DNA of 64,000 nucleotides, from positions 1-64,000 of the forward strand of contig JAJVIA010000014.1 in the NCBI GenBank assembly GCA_022072245.1, in the 5' to 3' direction. The notes beneath the pieces were generated by a model. That model worked only from the letters and a program-made list of their open reading frames with translations. It was not told where the DNA came from and did no database searches. The DNA is from Anaerolineae bacterium (GTDB lineage: Bacteria; Chloroflexota; Anaerolineae; UBA4142; SHND01). A program made the position numbers and the translations under genes. Of this stretch, positions 38,721-51,367 are shown piece after piece. Numbering within the stretch: the stretch's first letter is position 1; the number at the start of each line of letters is the position of its first letter.

Positions 38721-40439
38721 TTATTGCACCGTCACATTGAGCGTGTAATTTACCGTACCGTTTCCGAACGGCACGACTTGAATCACATAATCTTGCGTCA
38801 TGGGTAATTGGCCCGTCCAACTCGTCGCGCCGCTTTGCGAACGAATTAACGGTTGGCCATCTTGCATCCCGTAAATGGTAATGCCCGCGCTGTTGGGCGG
38901 CGCGTTCAAAACGACGGTCATGGTTTGCCCGCCATTCGCCTTGAGCAAGTACGTCACGACGCGGCTTTCGGCGGTAACGCCTTGCACTTGGGCGGAAACC
39001 GCGCCGGGCGCAAACGTAATGCGAACCGGAATCGTGACATTCAATCCAAAATTGGCGATGGGCACGGCATTGCCCGCCAACACTTGGATAATATAGTTGC
39101 CGCTGGCGGTCAGTTCGCCTTGCCAATATGTCCCTTCGGGATTGCCGCGCTGCGGCGCGAGCGGCACGCCCATCGGCGAAAGCACCGCCAGACGCGCGCT
39201 GGGACTATTGGAGGAAAGCGTCAATTCCATAGATTGCCCCGCTTGCGCGTTGATGGAATACGTCGCAATTCCGTTCGCGGGGATTTGGCCCTGGACGGCG
39301 ACTTCGGTTGCGCCGGGCGCGAATTGAATCGGCTGCGCGGGTCCGGGACCTGGCCCTGGCTGCGCGGTCGGCGGCGGAACGTTTGTCGGCGGCGCTACAG
39401 CTTTGACGTTAATGACCGCCGAGAGGGGCGAATTGCCTTGCGGAACGCCGATGAGCGTACCGTCATCCGCGCGCAGTTTCCAATTGCTCTTGTACGTGCC
39501 GGGCTGCGCGGGCGCGGTCATTTGAATCGAAAGGTCAGCGGTGACGCCGGCGGGAATTGGATTTGGAATCGGAACCAGATTGGGCGCGCCGAGCGGATTG
39601 CCGCCGACGAATTGCAGATTTTGCAAGCCGCTGCCGGGACCCCATGAACACGAACCGGTATTTTGCACGCGCCACGTCTTGATAAATTGCGTATTGGGCA
39701 GCATCACCTGTCCATCGGGAATGGTAATGTCTTCGACATATTTCGCGCTGAATACGCACGGCGCCGGCGCGGCGGTCGGTTGGATAAATGCGGTGGGCGT
39801 GGGAATGATGGGAACGACGGTCGGTTGCGCTGCAACTTGGGTAGGTTGTTCGGCGGGCGGTTGGTTTGCAGCTTGAGTGGGTTGTTCAGCGGGCGGCGGC
39901 GTGGTTTGACCAACGATGCCGAACGTCCAGCCAAAGTCCACATTCAATTTGTCCGCGCGGCGCAGTTTCACATTGTCCGTGATAACGTTGACCGCTTTTT
40001 GCGGCATGGTCCATACGCCCGCGCCGAGCACGGCGGTATTTTGCGGCGACGCGGCGTCAATCGAGATGCAATAATCGCCGCCATCCAGATTTTCAAATTT
40101 ATACGTCGGTTGATTGGCGGTCGTGGTCGTGACGGCTAGAACGCCGGCGGGACATTGTCCGACGCCGATTTGAACGGCGACGCCCGCGATGAGCGGTTCG
40201 TTGTCGTCGCGTTTGCCGTCGCCATTCGAATCGTTGAAAACATCGCCGCCAATCGCGGCTTTGCCTTCCATCGCCGCGGGCGTCGCTTGCGCGGGGACGG
40301 TGGCGACGACGACGGCTGTTGGCAAGGGCGGCGTTGGCGTTGGATTCGCAGGGGGATTGCCGCCCAAACCGCCGCATCCGCTGAACGCGATGACGGCGAG
40401 TACAAGAATGCCGCAGACGAACCAATGTGAGTGTTTCAT
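38721..40439 (-). CDS. lipoprotein with SdrD_B-like, NBR1 Ig-like and PPC-like domains
   Basis: The 572-residue secreted protein begins MKHSHWFVCGILVLAVIAFS with the lipobox cysteine at 22, then a Pro/Thr-rich spacer. A Cna/SdrD_B-like beta domain follows (GGDVFNDSNGDGKRDDNEPL ... GDYCISID), then a Q/P/T-rich stalk, and a central NBR1-type Ig-like domain (FIKTWRVQNTGSCSWGPGSG, TYKSNWKLRADDGTLIGVPQ). Two related PPC-like beta domains close it (FAPGATEVAVQG... and FAPGAVSAQVQG...). The start at 40439 has GGGAGC upstream; an in-frame start at 40505 would overlap the acylase gene. Such proteins display adhesive or carrier domains on the surface. It lies downstream of the penicillin acylase gene. 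Confidence 0.88.
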   Translation of the reverse strand: MKHSHWFVCGILVLAVIAFSGCGGLGGNPPANPTPTPPLPTAVVVATVPAQATPAAMEGKAAIGGDVFNDSNGDGKRDDNEPLIAGVAVQIGVGQCPAGVLAVTTTTANQPTYKFENLDGGDYCISIDAASPQNTAVLGAGVWTMPQKAVNVITDNVKLRRADKLNVDFGWTFGIVGQTTPPPAEQPTQAANQPPAEQPTQVAAQPTVVPIIPTPTAFIQPTAAPAPCVFSAKYVEDITIPDGQVMLPNTQFIKTWRVQNTGSCSWGPGSGLQNLQFVGGNPLGAPNLVPIPNPIPAGVTADLSIQMTAPAQPGTYKSNWKLRADDGTLIGVPQGNSPLSAVINVKAVAPPTNVPPPTAQPGPGPGPAQPIQFAPGATEVAVQGQIPANGIATYSINAQAGQSMELTLSSNSPSARLAVLSPMGVPLAPQRGNPEGTYWQGELTASGNYIIQVLAGNAVPIANFGLNVTIPVRITFAPGAVSAQVQGVTAESRVVTYLLKANGGQTMTVVLNAPPNSAGITIYGMQDGQPLIRSQSGATSWTGQLPMTQDYVIQVVPFGNGTVNYTLNVTVQ

Positions 40440-40494
40440 GTTCTGCTCCCTGAACCGAGCCCAAAATTTGGACGCGCCAATCTCGGGGCTCGGT

Positions 40495-42951
40495 CTAGTC
40501 CTCAAGCTCTAACCTTAAAATTCCTTCGCGCTGCGCCAAGATTTTTTCGCGCGACCACCATAACGGATGATATTCGCCGTTCAACCACAACGGCAGCATG
40601 TCGGCGTAATGACGGCTCGACGGATGGCCCGATTGTCCGGTCGGATGGATGCCGCGCGAGGCGTCCCAATCGTTCACGTCCAAGATTTGACGCCACGATG
40701 CCGAAGAGACCGCGTTATCGGGAATGGGCATTTGCGGCACAAACGCGGCTTGCCATACGGTGGAGGTATCGCCGCCGTACGGAAAAGGTCCGCGGCTGAA
40801 AATTTTATCGAGCGGTTTCACCGCGCCCAACACATGCGGAAAGACGACGCGATGCAGTTTGCCCCACTGCCATTGGCGCATATCCAAAGCGACATGGGTT
40901 TCCAAAAATTTTAACGCGTCGCCCAGCGCGCCCGCCAAAATATCAACGCTCGTCAATCTTTGCCCGGACGCGTCCGTCATCCATTCCGTTTCTTTATTTT
41001 CCAAAATACGCAGCGCGATGAGATACGCGCGGTCCAAATAAGGACTGTTGACGGGATGCAGTAACGGGTGGGCGCCGACGCCGATGAAACTATCGGTCAA
41101 AGCGCCGAGCCACGGTTTGAACAAACGCTGCATCGCAAAGTAAAGCGTCGTCTCGTACAACGCGCCTGCGACCGTATCGGCGGTGAGTTGACAATCCCAC
41201 GCGTCGAGCAGTTGCAGCGCGTCGCGCGCGGACGCGCCGCGGCCGTGCAGCGCGGGATGGATAACGATTTTGTCGCCGTACGCGCGCGTCAATTTTTGTA
41301 AAGTCTCGGCGGGAATGCAATGCACGTCCGTCTGGATGCGCGCAAAATCGTCGGCGGACAATTTTTCTTGCGCGGTGAGCAACGCGATAATGCGCTGCGC
41401 GCGAAAACCGTTCATGGTGTCGAGCGAGAGATGATGCTTGTATTCTTTGCCGACGACGGTATTGTTGGCGGTGGCGTAAAAATGCGCGGCGCCATTGTAA
41501 CTGCGCGGCAATTCGTCGAACGGGACCCAGCCCGTCCAGGCGTAATCGTCCGTCCATCCCGGAACCGGCGTCGCGCCTTTGCCCTTTTTGCGCAGCGGCG
41601 TATTGCCCGCGAGTTGATAGCCGATGTTGCCCGCGCGGTCGGCGTACACGAACGATAACGCGGGTTCGCTCCAATCGCGCAGCGCGGCGGTAAATTCGTT
41701 CCAATTGCGCGCGCGCATCAAATGCAAACCCGCGTGCAGCGTGCGCGAAGCGTCATGGCCCACCCATCGGAGCGCGAGGCGCAGGGGCTGCGCGTCGCCC
41801 GCGTGGATTTGCCACTCGTCCATCACGGGCCCGTGCCGCGTAATGGTCACGTCCACGCTATGCGGCTGCGCGTGTCCCTTGACGCGGATTTCTTCGCGCG
41901 TCACTTGGGCGGTTTCCCAGCTATCGTTCACGCGGTACCGTGTCGGGTCGTGAGCGTCGAATTGTTCAATGTACAAATCTTGCGTGTCCACAAAGGCGTT
42001 GGTCACGCCCCACGCGAGGTCTTGATTGTGACCAATGACGACCAGCGGCACGCCCGGCAGCGTTACGCCCGCCGCCTGCCATTCCGGCGTAATCAAATGC
42101 GCTTCGTACCACAGCGACGGCATTTGCATCGGCAGATGCGGGTCGTTCGCCAGCAGCGGTTGCTGCGTTGCCGATTTCGCGCCGTCCACGACCCAATTGT
42201 TGCTCATGCCGACGGGCGCGCTCAAGTTCAAAAATTTTTTCGCGTCGCGCAATTCGGCGACGAGGCGCTCAAAACCGGGGATGGGCGTGTGATTCAAGAT
42301 GATGGGATTTGTGTCGGCGAGATCGCTACCCAAAAGTTTCGCGGCGCGTTCGGGACCGAGTTTATCCAGAATCGCCGCGCGCAAAAGTTCTCCGTCCCAA
42401 TTTATGCCTTGCCCCCATGCCATCATTTTGATCCACGCGAGCGAATCGAGCGGCCGCCACGGTTCAGGTTTGTAACGCAGCAGCGTAAATTCAATCGGCA
42501 ATTTATTGGAATGTGTATTCAAGAACTCGTTCACGCCGCGCGCGTACGCGTTCAACGCCGTCACCGTTTCAGTGGACGCGTGCATCCAATCGTTCTTGGC
42601 TGCGCGCTGCAAGCCGACGCGGCGCATCAAGATATCCGCGCTCAAAGCAAGGTCGCCAAAAATTTCGCTCAGGCGTCCGGCGGGCAAACGGCGATTCATT
42701 TCCATGTGCCACAAACGGTCTTGGGCGTGGACAAAACCTTGCGCGAAAAAAACATCCTCGTCATTCTGCGCGTAAATGTGCGGCACGCCCCATTTATCGC
42801 GAATGATTTCGACGGGCGCGTTCAAGCCGCGCAATTTCAAACGGCCGTTGATGATGGGCAGCGGCCGCCGCCATAGATAGGCGATGCCCGCGATGGGTGC
42901 GATGATGGCGGCGGCGAGCGCGCCGACGAGTATCAGATTTTTATTGGACAT
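40495..42951 (-). CDS. penicillin acylase family Ntn hydrolase
   Basis: The 818-residue precursor begins with a transmembrane or signal segment (LILVGALAAAIIAPIAGIAY). The alpha-chain part has IIRDKWGVPHIYAQNDEDVF and FVHAQDRLWHMEMNRRLPAG. The nucleophile is the Ser in VGMSNNWVVDG near residue 250, where self-cleavage would create the N-terminal serine of the beta chain; PLLANDPHLP follows. Family members hydrolyse amides such as beta-lactam side chains or acyl-homoserine lactones; the natural substrate here is unknown. It is probably exported or membrane-bound, and the lipoprotein gene follows 55 bp later. Confidence 0.93.
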   Translation of the reverse strand: MSNKNLILVGALAAAIIAPIAGIAYLWRRPLPIINGRLKLRGLNAPVEIIRDKWGVPHIYAQNDEDVFFAQGFVHAQDRLWHMEMNRRLPAGRLSEIFGDLALSADILMRRVGLQRAAKNDWMHASTETVTALNAYARGVNEFLNTHSNKLPIEFTLLRYKPEPWRPLDSLAWIKMMAWGQGINWDGELLRAAILDKLGPERAAKLLGSDLADTNPIILNHTPIPGFERLVAELRDAKKFLNLSAPVGMSNNWVVDGAKSATQQPLLANDPHLPMQMPSLWYEAHLITPEWQAAGVTLPGVPLVVIGHNQDLAWGVTNAFVDTQDLYIEQFDAHDPTRYRVNDSWETAQVTREEIRVKGHAQPHSVDVTITRHGPVMDEWQIHAGDAQPLRLALRWVGHDASRTLHAGLHLMRARNWNEFTAALRDWSEPALSFVYADRAGNIGYQLAGNTPLRKKGKGATPVPGWTDDYAWTGWVPFDELPRSYNGAAHFYATANNTVVGKEYKHHLSLDTMNGFRAQRIIALLTAQEKLSADDFARIQTDVHCIPAETLQKLTRAYGDKIVIHPALHGRGASARDALQLLDAWDCQLTADTVAGALYETTLYFAMQRLFKPWLGALTDSFIGVGAHPLLHPVNSPYLDRAYLIALRILENKETEWMTDASGQRLTSVDILAGALGDALKFLETHVALDMRQWQWGKLHRVVFPHVLGAVKPLDKIFSRGPFPYGGDTSTVWQAAFVPQMPIPDNAVSSASWRQILDVNDWDASRGIHPTGQSGHPSSRHYADMLPLWLNGEYHPLWWSREKILAQREGILRLELED

Positions 42952-47716: not shown

Positions 47717-47745
47717 TTGACAACGCGTCCAAAATAGTATATACT
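47717..47745 (+). promoter_or_regulatory. promoter and likely auto-operator of the MarR gene
   Basis: TTGACA (47717-47722) and TATACT (47740-47745) are 17 bp apart. The following AACTATATGG overlaps the start codon and is identical to one half of the operator at 48205-48236. The ATG is 8 nt after the -10 box, so the mRNA is probably leaderless and self-repressed. Confidence 0.75.
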
Positions 47746-47753
47746 TGAACTAT

Positions 47754-48188
47754 ATGGCTCAAGTGCAAGCGTCGGTTTTGGCGTGGATTCATCTCCTCCG
47801 CGTACACCATCAGATTCAGCGGCGTGAAACCGCGCAGTTGGCGCAGTACAATCTCACGCTGCCGCAGTTTGACGTTTTGACGCAGTTGAGCCGCGAAGAG
47901 GGCATCACGCAGCAATGTCTCGCCGACCGGCTGCTCGTGACCAAGGGCAATGTGTGCGGCTTGATGGATCGCATGGTCGAGCAGGGTTTGGTGGAGCGCC
48001 GCGCCGACCCGCAAGACCGCCGCGCGTACATGTTGTACCAGACGCCCAAAGCCCGAGCTCTGATGCAAAAAGTGGCGCCCGCGCAGAGCCGCTTTATCGC
48101 CGCCCAGCTGGGCAAGCTGTCGCCCGTCAAACAAAAACAATTGCTCGCGTTGCTCGGCGAACTGGACCGCGCGTTGGCGGCGGAATAG
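47754..48188 (+). CDS. MarR family transcription regulator
   Basis: The 144-residue protein MAQVQASVLAWIHLLRVHHQ... has the winged helix: LTLPQFDVLTQLSREEGITQ, QCLADRLLVTKGNVCGLMDR (recognition helix) and the wing VERRADPQDRRAYMLY. MarR dimers bind short palindromes and release them on binding phenolic or oxidised ligands. I start at ATG 47754, 8 nt after the -10 box; ATG-like codons upstream at 47745 lie in the promoter. A perfect inverted repeat between this gene and the YceI gene shares its half-site, so both genes are the likely regulon. Confidence 0.92.
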   Translation: MAQVQASVLAWIHLLRVHHQIQRRETAQLAQYNLTLPQFDVLTQLSREEGITQQCLADRLLVTKGNVCGLMDRMVEQGLVERRADPQDRRAYMLYQTPKARALMQKVAPAQSRFIAAQLGKLSPVKQKQLLALLGELDRALAAE

Positions 48189-48204
48189 GCGCGGTTTTTT
48201 TTAT

Positions 48205-48236
48205 CGCCATATAGTTTAACTATAAACTATATGGCG
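48205..48236. promoter_or_regulatory. MarR operator candidate upstream of yceI
   Basis: CGCCATATAGTTTA and TAAACTATATGGCG form 14-bp perfect arms around a 4-nt centre. The AT-rich core lies 94-125 bp before the yceI start and 17 bp after the MarR stop. The half-site AACTATATGG recurs at the MarR start codon. Confidence 0.85.
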
Positions 48237-48329
48237 GCGGGCGCGCCGCGCGGACGGCAGCGCCCGCCGCGACAAGACGAACCCGGATGAATGGTCCGGC
48301 AAATTTAATCCTTTAGGAGGGAAAGTATT

Positions 48330-48932
48330 ATGAGTTGGCAAGTAGATTATTCACATACCGCGATTCAATTTGCAGTGCGCCACATGATGATTTCGACGGT
48401 GCGCGGAGAATTTGAAAAATTCAAGATTGAAACCGCGCTCGACGACCCGCAAATTGAAAAATTGCACGCGAAAAATACGCTCAGCGAGCAGGACTTTTTG
48501 GACGCGCATCTGACGGTCGAGATTGACGCGGCAAGCGTCAATACGCGCGCCGCCGACCGCGATACGCATTTGCGTTCGCCCGATTTTTTTAATGCGGCGG
48601 AATATCCGACCATTGTTTTCAAGGCGGCGCGCGGCGAAAAAATTGACGACAAGCACGGCAAACTGTATGGCGCTTTGACGATTCGGGACATAACCAAACC
48701 GGCGGTTTTGCAAGTCGAATATCTCGGTGAGGCGAAATCGCCCTGGGGCGCGCACAGCGTCGGTTTCAGCGCGACCGCCAAAATTAACCGCAAGGACTGG
48801 GACTTGAATTGGAACGTTGCGCTGGAAACCGGCGGTTGGTTGGTCGGCGACGAAATTAAAATTGAAATTGACATCGAGTTCGTAAAGGTTCCCGAAGCGC
48901 AGCCGGCTGAACCGGCTCTGGCGACGGCTTGA
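48330..48932 (+). CDS. yceI: YceI-family protein
   Basis: The 200-residue lipocalin-like protein starts MSWQVDYSHTAIQFAVRHMM, with AGGAGGG as ribosome-binding site. Landmarks of the family: HLRSPDFFNAAEYPTIVFKA, KLYGALTIRDITKPAVLQVE and VGFSATAKINRKDWDLNWNV. YceI proteins bind amphipathic isoprenoids such as polyprenyl quinone chains in a beta-barrel. Here there is no signal peptide, so it is cytoplasmic. The perfect palindrome upstream suggests control by the adjacent MarR protein. Confidence 0.94.
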   Translation: MSWQVDYSHTAIQFAVRHMMISTVRGEFEKFKIETALDDPQIEKLHAKNTLSEQDFLDAHLTVEIDAASVNTRAADRDTHLRSPDFFNAAEYPTIVFKAARGEKIDDKHGKLYGALTIRDITKPAVLQVEYLGEAKSPWGAHSVGFSATAKINRKDWDLNWNVALETGGWLVGDEIKIEIDIEFVKVPEAQPAEPALATA

Positions 48933-49064
48933 CGGCTCACGTAACATTTTTCAAGCGCGCGTCACATAACAGGGCGCGCGCTTGACATTGCCGCCAAAAT
49001 TTGGCGCCGAGCCATTTTCCGTCCGCTGCGCGCGGATTTTTTAAAAAGTAGAAATCCAGTGCAA

Positions 49065-49943
49065 ATGTCTTTTCCCAAACCGCAGCCGCGTCCGATTTCG
49101 CTTGCCGCGCAAACGACGCTGGGGCATGTGCGGTTGACCGTACCGAATCTAAAACGTTCGCTCGCGTTTTATCAAGAGGTGTTAGGATTCCGTTTGCAGC
49201 GCATGGAAAAAAACGCGGCGCATCTCGGCGCGGGCGGCGCGGCTTTGCTCGTCCTCGACGAAAATCCCGACGCAAAACCGCAGCGCTTTACCACCGGCTT
49301 GTATCACTTTGCCATTCTCGTGCCGTCGCGTTTGGAATTGGCGCGCGCGCTGCGAAATTTTATCCAACACGATATCGAGTTGGGTTTTGGCGACCATATC
49401 GTGAGCGAAGCCATTTATTTCAGCGACCCCGACGGCAACGGCATCGAAGTCTATCGCGACCGCCCGCGTAGCGAGTGGTATGACAAGAACGGAAATTTTG
49501 TGATGGGCACCCTGCCTGTAGATGTGCGCGGCGTATTGCGTGAATTGGAAAATGAGCCGGACGCTTGGGCGGGTTTGGCGCGCGCCACCGTCTTGGGTCA
49601 CATGCACCTCAAAGTCGCGGATGTGAATCGCGCTGCGGCGTTTTATCGCGACGTCATCGGTTTGGACGAAATGGCAAATATGGGCAGCGCCGCTTTTTTG
49701 TCGGCGGGCGGTTATCATCATCATCTCGGCATGAACAATTGGGAGAGCGCGCACGCGCCCGCGCCGCCGCCCGATTCTGTCGGTTTGCAGTATTTCACCC
49801 TCGTCCTGCCCGATGCCGACGAACTCGCGCGCGTCGCCACGCGGGTGCGCGCGGCGGAATTTGTTTTACAAGAAACGGATGCGGGGCTGTGCGTCCGCGA
49901 CCCATCCCAAAATGGGATGATTCTGACAACCAATAATCAATAA
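49065..49943 (+). CDS. VOC-superfamily protein, catechol-2,3-dioxygenase-like (CatE)
   Basis: The 292-residue protein contains two pairs of VOC modules: LGHVRLTVPNLKRSLAFYQE with LYHFAILVPSRLELARALRN and AIYFSDPDGNGIEVYRDRP, then LGHMHLKVADVNRAAAFYRD with LQYFTLVLPDADELARVATR. Metal ligands H (LGHV), H (LYHFA) and E (GIEVYRD) in the first half fit an Fe/Mn site. Relatives open aromatic rings or act in glyoxalase-type reactions. The ATG at 49065 is preferred to an upstream GTG. Three bases separate its stop from the selenoprotein candidate, so they form one operon. Confidence 0.9.
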   Translation: MSFPKPQPRPISLAAQTTLGHVRLTVPNLKRSLAFYQEVLGFRLQRMEKNAAHLGAGGAALLVLDENPDAKPQRFTTGLYHFAILVPSRLELARALRNFIQHDIELGFGDHIVSEAIYFSDPDGNGIEVYRDRPRSEWYDKNGNFVMGTLPVDVRGVLRELENEPDAWAGLARATVLGHMHLKVADVNRAAAFYRDVIGLDEMANMGSAAFLSAGGYHHHLGMNNWESAHAPAPPPDSVGLQYFTLVLPDADELARVATRVRAAEFVLQETDAGLCVRDPSQNGMILTTNNQ

Positions 49944-49946
49944 ACT

Positions 49947-50549
49947 ATGGATGATCCAATTCGTATTGACGTTTGGTCGGATTTTGTCTGACCTTGGTGT
50001 TTTGTCGCTGGCTTGAGTCTCAAGCAGCTCGGTGAAACACATTCGATTACATTGCATTGGCGCGCGTTCGAACTGCGTCCGGTGGGCGCGCCGCCGCTGC
50101 CGCCGGAATATCGCGCGCAAATTCTTGCCAATCGTCCGGCGTTCGCCGCGCGCGTGCAGCGCGATTATGGCGTCGCCATTCAACCGGGGCCCTTTGACGT
50201 AAATACGCGCGCGTTACATCAATTGAAAAAATTCGCGGACGCGCAAGGCAAGGGCGCTGAATTTCACCAAGCCGCGCTCGAAGCGTATTGGCTGCATGAA
50301 ATGGATGTGAGCGCCGCCGCGATTCAACAAGCATTGCTCGCCCAAGTGGGTTTGACCACTTCCGTCGCGGAGGTATTGGCGGACGAAAATTATTTGCGCG
50401 CAGTGTTGGCGGACGAACAAATGGCGCACGCCAATAATATCAACGGCGTCCCCGCGTTGGTGTTTGCCGAAAAATATCTGGTCGTCGGCGCGCAGCCGCT
50501 GCATATCTTGCGCCAAGTGGTCGAACAGGCGCGGGCGGAACAAGCATGA
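49947..50549 (+). CDS. DsbA/FrnE-family oxidoreductase with UGA at the first active-site Cys (candidate selenoprotein)
   Basis: Reading through TGA at 49989-49991 gives 200 residues: MDDPIRIDVWSDFV-U-PWCFVAG and on to ...VNGVPALVFAEKYLVVGAQP-like features (NNINGVPALVFAEKYLVVGA). FrnE-type thioredoxin-fold proteins have DxVCPWC at this place, so the UGA stands exactly at the first redox cysteine, giving UPWC. Sequence before and after the UGA is in one frame and family-like: helix LHQLKKFADAQGKGAEFHQA and cis-Pro loop GVPALVF. A bulged hairpin with the expected spacing follows (50007-50028). Without read-through a 14-residue peptide would result. The stop overlaps the next gene by ATGA. It may act as a thiol-disulfide oxidoreductase or isomerase in the cytoplasm. 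No Sec machinery genes are in the window. Confidence 0.8.
50007..50028 (+). promoter_or_regulatory. bacterial SECIS-like hairpin
   Basis: In the coding RNA, GCUG (50007-50010), a bulged G, CUUGA (50012-50016), loop GUC, UCAAG (50020-50024) and CAGC (50025-50028) form a nine-pair stem. It begins 15 nt after the UGA and its loop lies 25 nt after it, inside the usual 16-37 nt range. The loop context AGUCU resembles the AGGUCU loop of the E. coli fdhF element, and the bulge lies at a comparable place. Confidence 0.7.
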
Positions 50550-51367
50550 CGCTCGAACCCGTCGAGATTCTGAATTATCTCGAATACGTCAAGGACGACG
50601 GGCGCGCGCATACGATTGTCGGCGATGTGCGCGTCATGCCGCAGGTGTGGATTCCGCAGCTCGAGACCAAGCGCGATATTTTGATTTACGCGCCGCCGTC
50701 GTACAACACGAGCGCCAAGCGGTATCCGGTTTTGTACATGCACGACGGCCAAAATTTGTTTGACGAAGCGACGGCGTACGCGGGACACGATTGGCGCGTG
50801 GACGAAACGATGCAAGCGTTGAGTCAAGAAGGATTCGAGGCGTTAGTGGTCGGCATCTGTCACGGCGGCGAACAGCGTTTGACCGAGTACAATCCTTTTC
50901 CGGGCAAATGGCCCGGGCGCGGCGCGGCGCATGTGGCGTTTGTTTGCGACACTTTGAAACCTTTTATAGACAATACTTTACGCACGCGTCCCGAACACGC
51001 GGCGACGGGCGTATTCGGTTCTTCGATGGGCGGCTTGATTTCGTTGTATGCGTTTTTCAGCCGTCCCGATATTTTTGGCATGTGCGGCGCGATGAGCCCA
51101 TCGTTGTTTGTGAGTCAAAACGCGATTCTCGATTATGCGCGCGCGGCGGCGTGGAATGAAGGACGGATTTATCTGGACAATGGCACGTATGAACCGAGCG
51201 CGCGCCCGATGTATCAAGCGCTGCGCGCGAAAGGATATAAAGCGCGGCGTCATTTGAAATATGTGCGCGAGCGCGGCGCCAGACATACCGAGAGCGCGTG
51301 GGCGCGTCGTTTGCCCAACGCGCTGCGCTTTTTGCTCCAAGATTTTCGCGCTCTGCAAACCGCTTGA
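50546..51367 (+). CDS. esterase of the PF00756 family
   Basis: A 273-residue alpha/beta hydrolase. The oxyanion-region strand is RYPVLYMHDGQNLFDEATAY, the nucleophile elbow GVFGSSMGGLISLYAFFSRP (G-x-S-x-G), and the acid and His appear in LDNGTYEP and GARHTESAWARRLPNALRFL. This layout matches enterochelin-esterase-like and feruloyl-esterase-like proteins. Its ATG overlaps the stop of the DsbA-like gene by 4 nt and the glycosidase gene follows 7 bp later, so the three are co-transcribed. No signal peptide. Confidence 0.9.
   Translation: MTLEPVEILNYLEYVKDDGRAHTIVGDVRVMPQVWIPQLETKRDILIYAPPSYNTSAKRYPVLYMHDGQNLFDEATAYAGHDWRVDETMQALSQEGFEALVVGICHGGEQRLTEYNPFPGKWPGRGAAHVAFVCDTLKPFIDNTLRTRPEHAATGVFGSSMGGLISLYAFFSRPDIFGMCGAMSPSLFVSQNAILDYARAAAWNEGRIYLDNGTYEPSARPMYQALRAKGYKARRHLKYVRERGARHTESAWARRLPNALRFLLQDFRALQTA

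Follow-up and report, generated by a model that had tools for sequence, protein, structure and literature searches.

The DNA analysed here, referred to as the window, is a 64,000-nucleotide stretch from the genome of an Anaerolineae bacterium. One of its genes, which encodes a protein related to the thiol oxidoreductases DsbA and FrnE, contains an in-frame UGA codon followed by a short hairpin, and the locus raises the question of whether the codon is read as selenocysteine (Sec) and whether the hairpin is the signal for this reading. Comparison with related sequences makes it almost certain that this 22-nt structure represents a bacterial SECIS (bSECIS) element within the coding sequence of a selenoprotein of the FrnE/DsbA type, where it would direct the insertion of Sec.

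Read-through from the ATG at position 49947 results in a 200-residue protein, MDDPIRIDVWSDFV-U-PWCFVAGLSLKQL..., which ends at the stop codon TGA 50547–50549. The active site has the sequence DFV-U-PWC, and the motif continues as U-PWCFVAG. The protein matches the Pfam family DSBA with a score of 81.8 bits, above the cut-off of 25.6, and no NCBIfam model was found for it. Its best solved relatives are the crystal structures of FrnE (PDB 5cnw and 5cp1), with an E-value of 6.8e-20 over residues 3–199. The UGA is aligned with the catalytic Cys of the homologues, and the reading frame is otherwise intact. The encoded protein probably acts as a thiol-disulfide oxidoreductase.

The hairpin, GCTGGCTTGAGTCTCAAGCAGC (positions 50007–50028 of the window), folds as GCUG-(G)-CUUGA-GUC-UCAAG-CAGC, with nine pairs overall, five of which constitute the upper part of the stem. 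The first-pass annotation had described this hairpin with nine pairs and one bulge, and its bases, coordinates, and fold were confirmed; the coordinates also bear out the placement of the loop, since the triloop is positioned 25 nt after the UGA. The folding energy of the 22-nt hairpin calculated by ViennaRNA is −8.8 kcal/mol, for exactly the structure given above, and inclusion of one extra base on each side results in −10.2 kcal/mol. The published bSECIS model limits the loop to 3–9 nt, the stem to 4–16 bp, the spacing from the UGA to 16–37 nt, and the energy to −7.5 kcal/mol or lower, and it includes a G in the first two positions of the loop (PMC13188914). In loop, stem, position of the G, spacing, and energy, the hairpin lies within all of these limits. 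A search of Rfam 15 provided no SECIS match for the hairpin at either threshold.

Table 1 Features of the selenoprotein gene, its hairpin, and the neighbouring genes (positions in the window)
Feature	Position	Strand	Basis or comment
MarR-family regulator, conserved cluster neighbour	47745–48188	+	
YceI-like protein, conserved cluster neighbour	48330–48932	+	
Two-domain glyoxalase/extradiol dioxygenase superfamily (VOC) protein, upstream neighbour, conserved cluster	49059–49943	+	
DsbA/FrnE-like thiol oxidoreductase gene, predicted Sec at residue 15	49947–50549	+	Pfam DSBA, FrnE structures
In-frame UGA, predicted to be read as selenocysteine	49989–49991	+	Aligned with the first Cys of CPWC in Cys homologues
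Predicted bSECIS hairpin	50007–50028	+	Sequence, alignment, covariation, folding
Outer arms of the hairpin	50007–50010 / 50025–50028	+	
Bulged G of the hairpin	50011	+	
Conserved core of the predicted bSECIS, CUUGA-GUC-UCAAG	50012–50024	+	97.9% of cells paired in 48 homologues, compensatory changes
Inner stem arms	50012–50016 / 50020–50024	+	
Triloop GUC	50017–50019	+	AGUCU if the closing A-U pair is open
Putative esterase	50546–51367	+	ATG overlapping the stop codon (TGA) of the selenoprotein gene

Taken alone, the hairpin of a single sequence is modest evidence for the insertion of Sec, because a model-like hairpin of equal or greater stability is located after 5.5% of the codons in the neighbouring genes. 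The comparison of the 45-nt fold with dinucleotide shuffles gave no signal (z = 0.18). When the sequence was recoded synonymously at the hairpin's own position, with the amino acids fixed and the codons drawn by local usage (mean −2.6 kcal/mol, standard deviation 1.8), 0.02% of 5000 sequences folded as well as the hairpin (p ~ 0.0002); the stem is thus better than its synonymous-codon controls, a comparison on which the first-pass annotation had staked its reading. When any model-like hairpin downstream was accepted, in a permissive scan with codons preserved in the controls, p was 0.08 for the window, and p ≤ 0.05 was reached by 18 of the 58 sequences with UGA and three of the eight with Cys, which does not clearly separate the two forms. 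Therefore, the case is carried by the position of the hairpin and its covariation.

Four other genomes of the genus contain the gene; in three of them, at 78, 68, and 66% protein identity, the codon in question is TGA, and the remaining one encodes Cys (54% identity). A class-wide search of 396 genomes identified a relative with an E-value of 1e-20 or lower in 63 of them. Together with loci from a public genome collection, the search provided 58 distinct sequences with UGA at the same codon, including that of the window, and eight Cys sequences. Forty-eight of the UGA sequences form the main clade, which shares the register of the window and can be aligned without gaps; they were chosen by the presence of AGT or GGT at the loop codon. 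The ten other UGA sequences belong to a separate sub-clade and encode Val or Arg at the loop codon.

Pairing within the 5-bp inner stem reaches 97.9% of cells in the alignment of the 48 main-clade sequences, with double compensatory changes at four of the five pairs. Thus, the UGA orthologues keep the stem, as the first-pass annotation had anticipated. The number of cells with double changes is 21, compared to 3.3 in shuffles. The covariation score of the inner stem is 0.352, in comparison with 0.121 for shuffled alignments, none of 500 of which scored as high, and with 0.03–0.12 for slid partners; the shuffle control ignores kinship, whereas the slid-partner control retains it. With the alignment alone as input, RNAalifold predicts exactly the five inner pairs. 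The residues flanking the loop change jointly: LSLK is encoded with CUUG/CAAG, SSLE with CUCC/GGAG, FSLK with CUUC/GAAG, ASLA with CGCC/GGCG, and SGLD with GUCC/GGAC. These matched amino-acid swaps point the same way as the slid-partner control.

The choice of codons is constrained in the same region. The Ser in the loop is encoded by AGU in all 46 sequences that have Ser there, and the codon accounts for 8.6% of Ser codons elsewhere in the same genes. The count is not biased by the selection of sequences, because the ten excluded ones encode Val or Arg at this position. The core stem retains a mean of 3.90 of four pairs, compared to 2.15 under synonymous sampling, in which none of 2000 samples reached the observed value. 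Judged by these comparisons, the conservation of the hairpin in the relatives is far beyond chance, and the comparative evidence settles, as far as sequences can, that it is a real bSECIS signal. The claim that the hairpin independently supports the insertion of Sec holds through the covariation in the relatives, but the fold of the single sequence contributes little to it.

The outer part of the stem is weaker. Over all nine pairs, 82.9% of cells are paired in the 48 sequences; column pair 21–38 is unpaired in 37 of them, and two congeners (L022 and L023) have a rearranged stem base. Therefore, the bulge and the outer stem are local features. Both the spacing and the bulge had been put forward as matching the requirements of SelB; the spacing of 25 nt lies within the 16–37 nt range, but the bulge is not general to the UGA homologues and thus does not count as an established requirement of SelB. 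According to the alignment, selection on the bSECIS acts on the five inner pairs and on the GU of the loop, and not on the bulge or the lower part of the stem.

The sub-clade of ten UGA sequences (L141, L142, L144, L145, L147, and L150–L154) has a strongly conserved hairpin in another register. The hairpin, UCGGCCA-GGGUG-UGGUCGA, forms 6–7 of seven pairs, is positioned 20 nt after the UGA, and replaces the AGUYU type.

It is very unlikely that Sec is inserted while SelB mainly recognises another feature, such as the conserved sequence downstream or a larger structure that extends to the UGA, and that the hairpin has a different task, for example slowing of the ribosome. The CC and several further bases right after the UGA are invariant, which would fit such recognition, although they also encode P-[WFY]-C, and the flanks of the hairpin pair differently between species in longer folds. 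However, the strongest covariation is that of the inner hairpin, to which the RNAalifold prediction is confined, and the second sub-clade keeps a model-like hairpin even in another register.

The stem and loop are intact in none of the five main-clade Cys homologues that were examined. The syntenic Cys orthologue from the same genus (L097) has the loop CGC instead of GUC and still pairs at four of five positions by a relaxed count. Three of five pairs are kept in the Cys form L119, a sister of the UGA form L127, and its loop is ATT. Two other Cys forms, L024 (5040–5102) and L025 (5034–5096), have kept the AGTCT loop with two pairs broken in each, as if they contained decaying former bSECIS elements. 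The stem is kept by compensatory changes in the UGA orthologues and relaxed in the Cys forms, the number of which is only eight. In the unrooted phylogenetic tree, the Cys forms are scattered among the Sec forms, and well-supported branches force at least five changes between the two, which may have run in either direction. There is an even chance that the FrnE selenoprotein is ancient and class-wide in these Chloroflexota, that the hairpin steered the evolution of the protein via the matched swaps (LSLK, SSLE, FSLK, ASLA, and SGLD), and that Sec was replaced by Cys several times, with subsequent decay of the stem and persistence of loop remnants.

The same comparisons bear on whether the UGA is a true stop, a sequencing error, or a pseudogene mutation of a Cys codon (TGC or TGT), with the hairpin arising by chance from the codons used for AGLSLKQL. 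The unexceptional fold of the single sequence, with similar hairpins after about 5% of codons, and a mechanically defined open reading frame that starts after the UGA at TTG 50013 would be consistent with this. However, the UGA is present in the independent assemblies of the genus and in the 58 class-wide sequences, and the frame is intact after it; the stem covaries and the AGU is fixed; and a reading frame initiated at the TTG would contain neither the first strand nor the active-site motif. A coincidental hairpin after a stop or an error is thus extremely improbable. A sequencing error was rejected, as was a genuine stop followed by new initiation at TTG 50013, because the comparative data refute both.

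The host genome encodes SelA (573.8 bits), SelB (356.6 bits), SelD (356.9 bits), and a tRNA-Sec with the anticodon UCA (70.9 bits). SelB includes the winged-helix Pfam domains SelB-wing_2 and wing_3. Two of the genomes of the genus with the UGA each lack one Sec gene in their assembly, selA in G001 and selB in G004, probably because the assemblies are incomplete. SelB exceeds the cut-off in 314 of the 396 genomes of the class, and therefore its co-occurrence with the UGA is little informative. Reassignment of UGA in this organism, for example to Trp or Gly, would make the hairpin unnecessary and agree with the frame being open through the codon, but deserves hardly any credence and was rejected, because the same gene stops at a TGA overlapped by the ATG of the next gene, the UGA aligns with Cys and not with Trp or Gly, and a bona fide tRNA-Sec with the anticodon UCA is present.

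Two other genes of the genome have in-frame UGA codons. That of selD (L161, contig C22 near 39758–40690) is in the context ACAG-U-ASK and has the stem CUCGGC-GCA-GCCGA just 3′ of it; in each of the six genomes of the genus, the selD match includes one TGA, and SelD itself looks like a selenoprotein. The other is a second, distinct DsbA-like gene with the UGA in the context EYY-U-PWCYV (L004:1519–1521, contig C4 near 76447). It is located approximately 9 kb from the tRNA-Sec gene, and folding predicts a hairpin downstream of its UGA.

With Sec as the preferred reading of the UGA in the window, a ribosome would reach the codon, and the hairpin 25 nt downstream would bind the C-terminal winged-helix part of SelB. 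SelB would bring Sec-tRNA-Sec (anticodon UCA) to the UGA, Sec would become the first residue of the active site (U-P-W-C), and the ribosome would continue to the TGA at the end of the gene. We infer the binding of SelB and the actual insertion of Sec, as well as the activity and role of the enzyme, from sequence data.

The gene order MarR–YceI–VOC–FrnE(Sec)–esterase (window 47745–51367) is conserved in the genus, with Cys as the FrnE residue in one member. The Cys orthologue L097 is located in the same MarR–VOC–FrnE–esterase cluster. The MarR–YceI–VOC–FrnE–esterase genes may constitute a regulated redox or electrophile-response cluster.

An annotation in which the UGA counts as a stop would split the gene or miss it. 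The 58 UGA and eight Cys forms, which include one matched pair from a single genus at an identical gene position, represent a natural data set for studying selection on bSECIS elements. The data set can guide the design of Sec-insertion reporters and searches for selenoproteins in Chloroflexota.

The hairpin resembles that of E. coli fdhF and bSECIS elements in general in its position in the coding region right after the UGA and in its 3-nt loop with G followed by U. In the SECIS of E. coli fdhF, the bulged base is a U nearer to the GGUC loop. By contrast, the hairpin in the window has a bulged G, which is separated from the loop by five pairs and is not conserved. We take the likeness of the loop to that of fdhF, which the first-pass annotation had pointed out, to be a resemblance that does not test the binding of SelB. 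The protein is similar to DsbA-like selenoprotein form 1 (PF01323) by family and motif, as both have the same Pfam family and UxxC. DsbA-like UxxC selenoproteins of PF01323 have already been catalogued (PMC13188914, PMC2398784), and DsbA-like selenoproteins are also described in PMC1794560; the protein from the window belongs to a class-wide group in Anaerolineae-related Chloroflexota. The solved FrnE chains (PDB 5cnw and 5cp1) are longer, with 260 residues, and use Cys, with CPWC in the place of UPWC. The type of signal and the type of protein are both already known, and the gene in the window adds another case.
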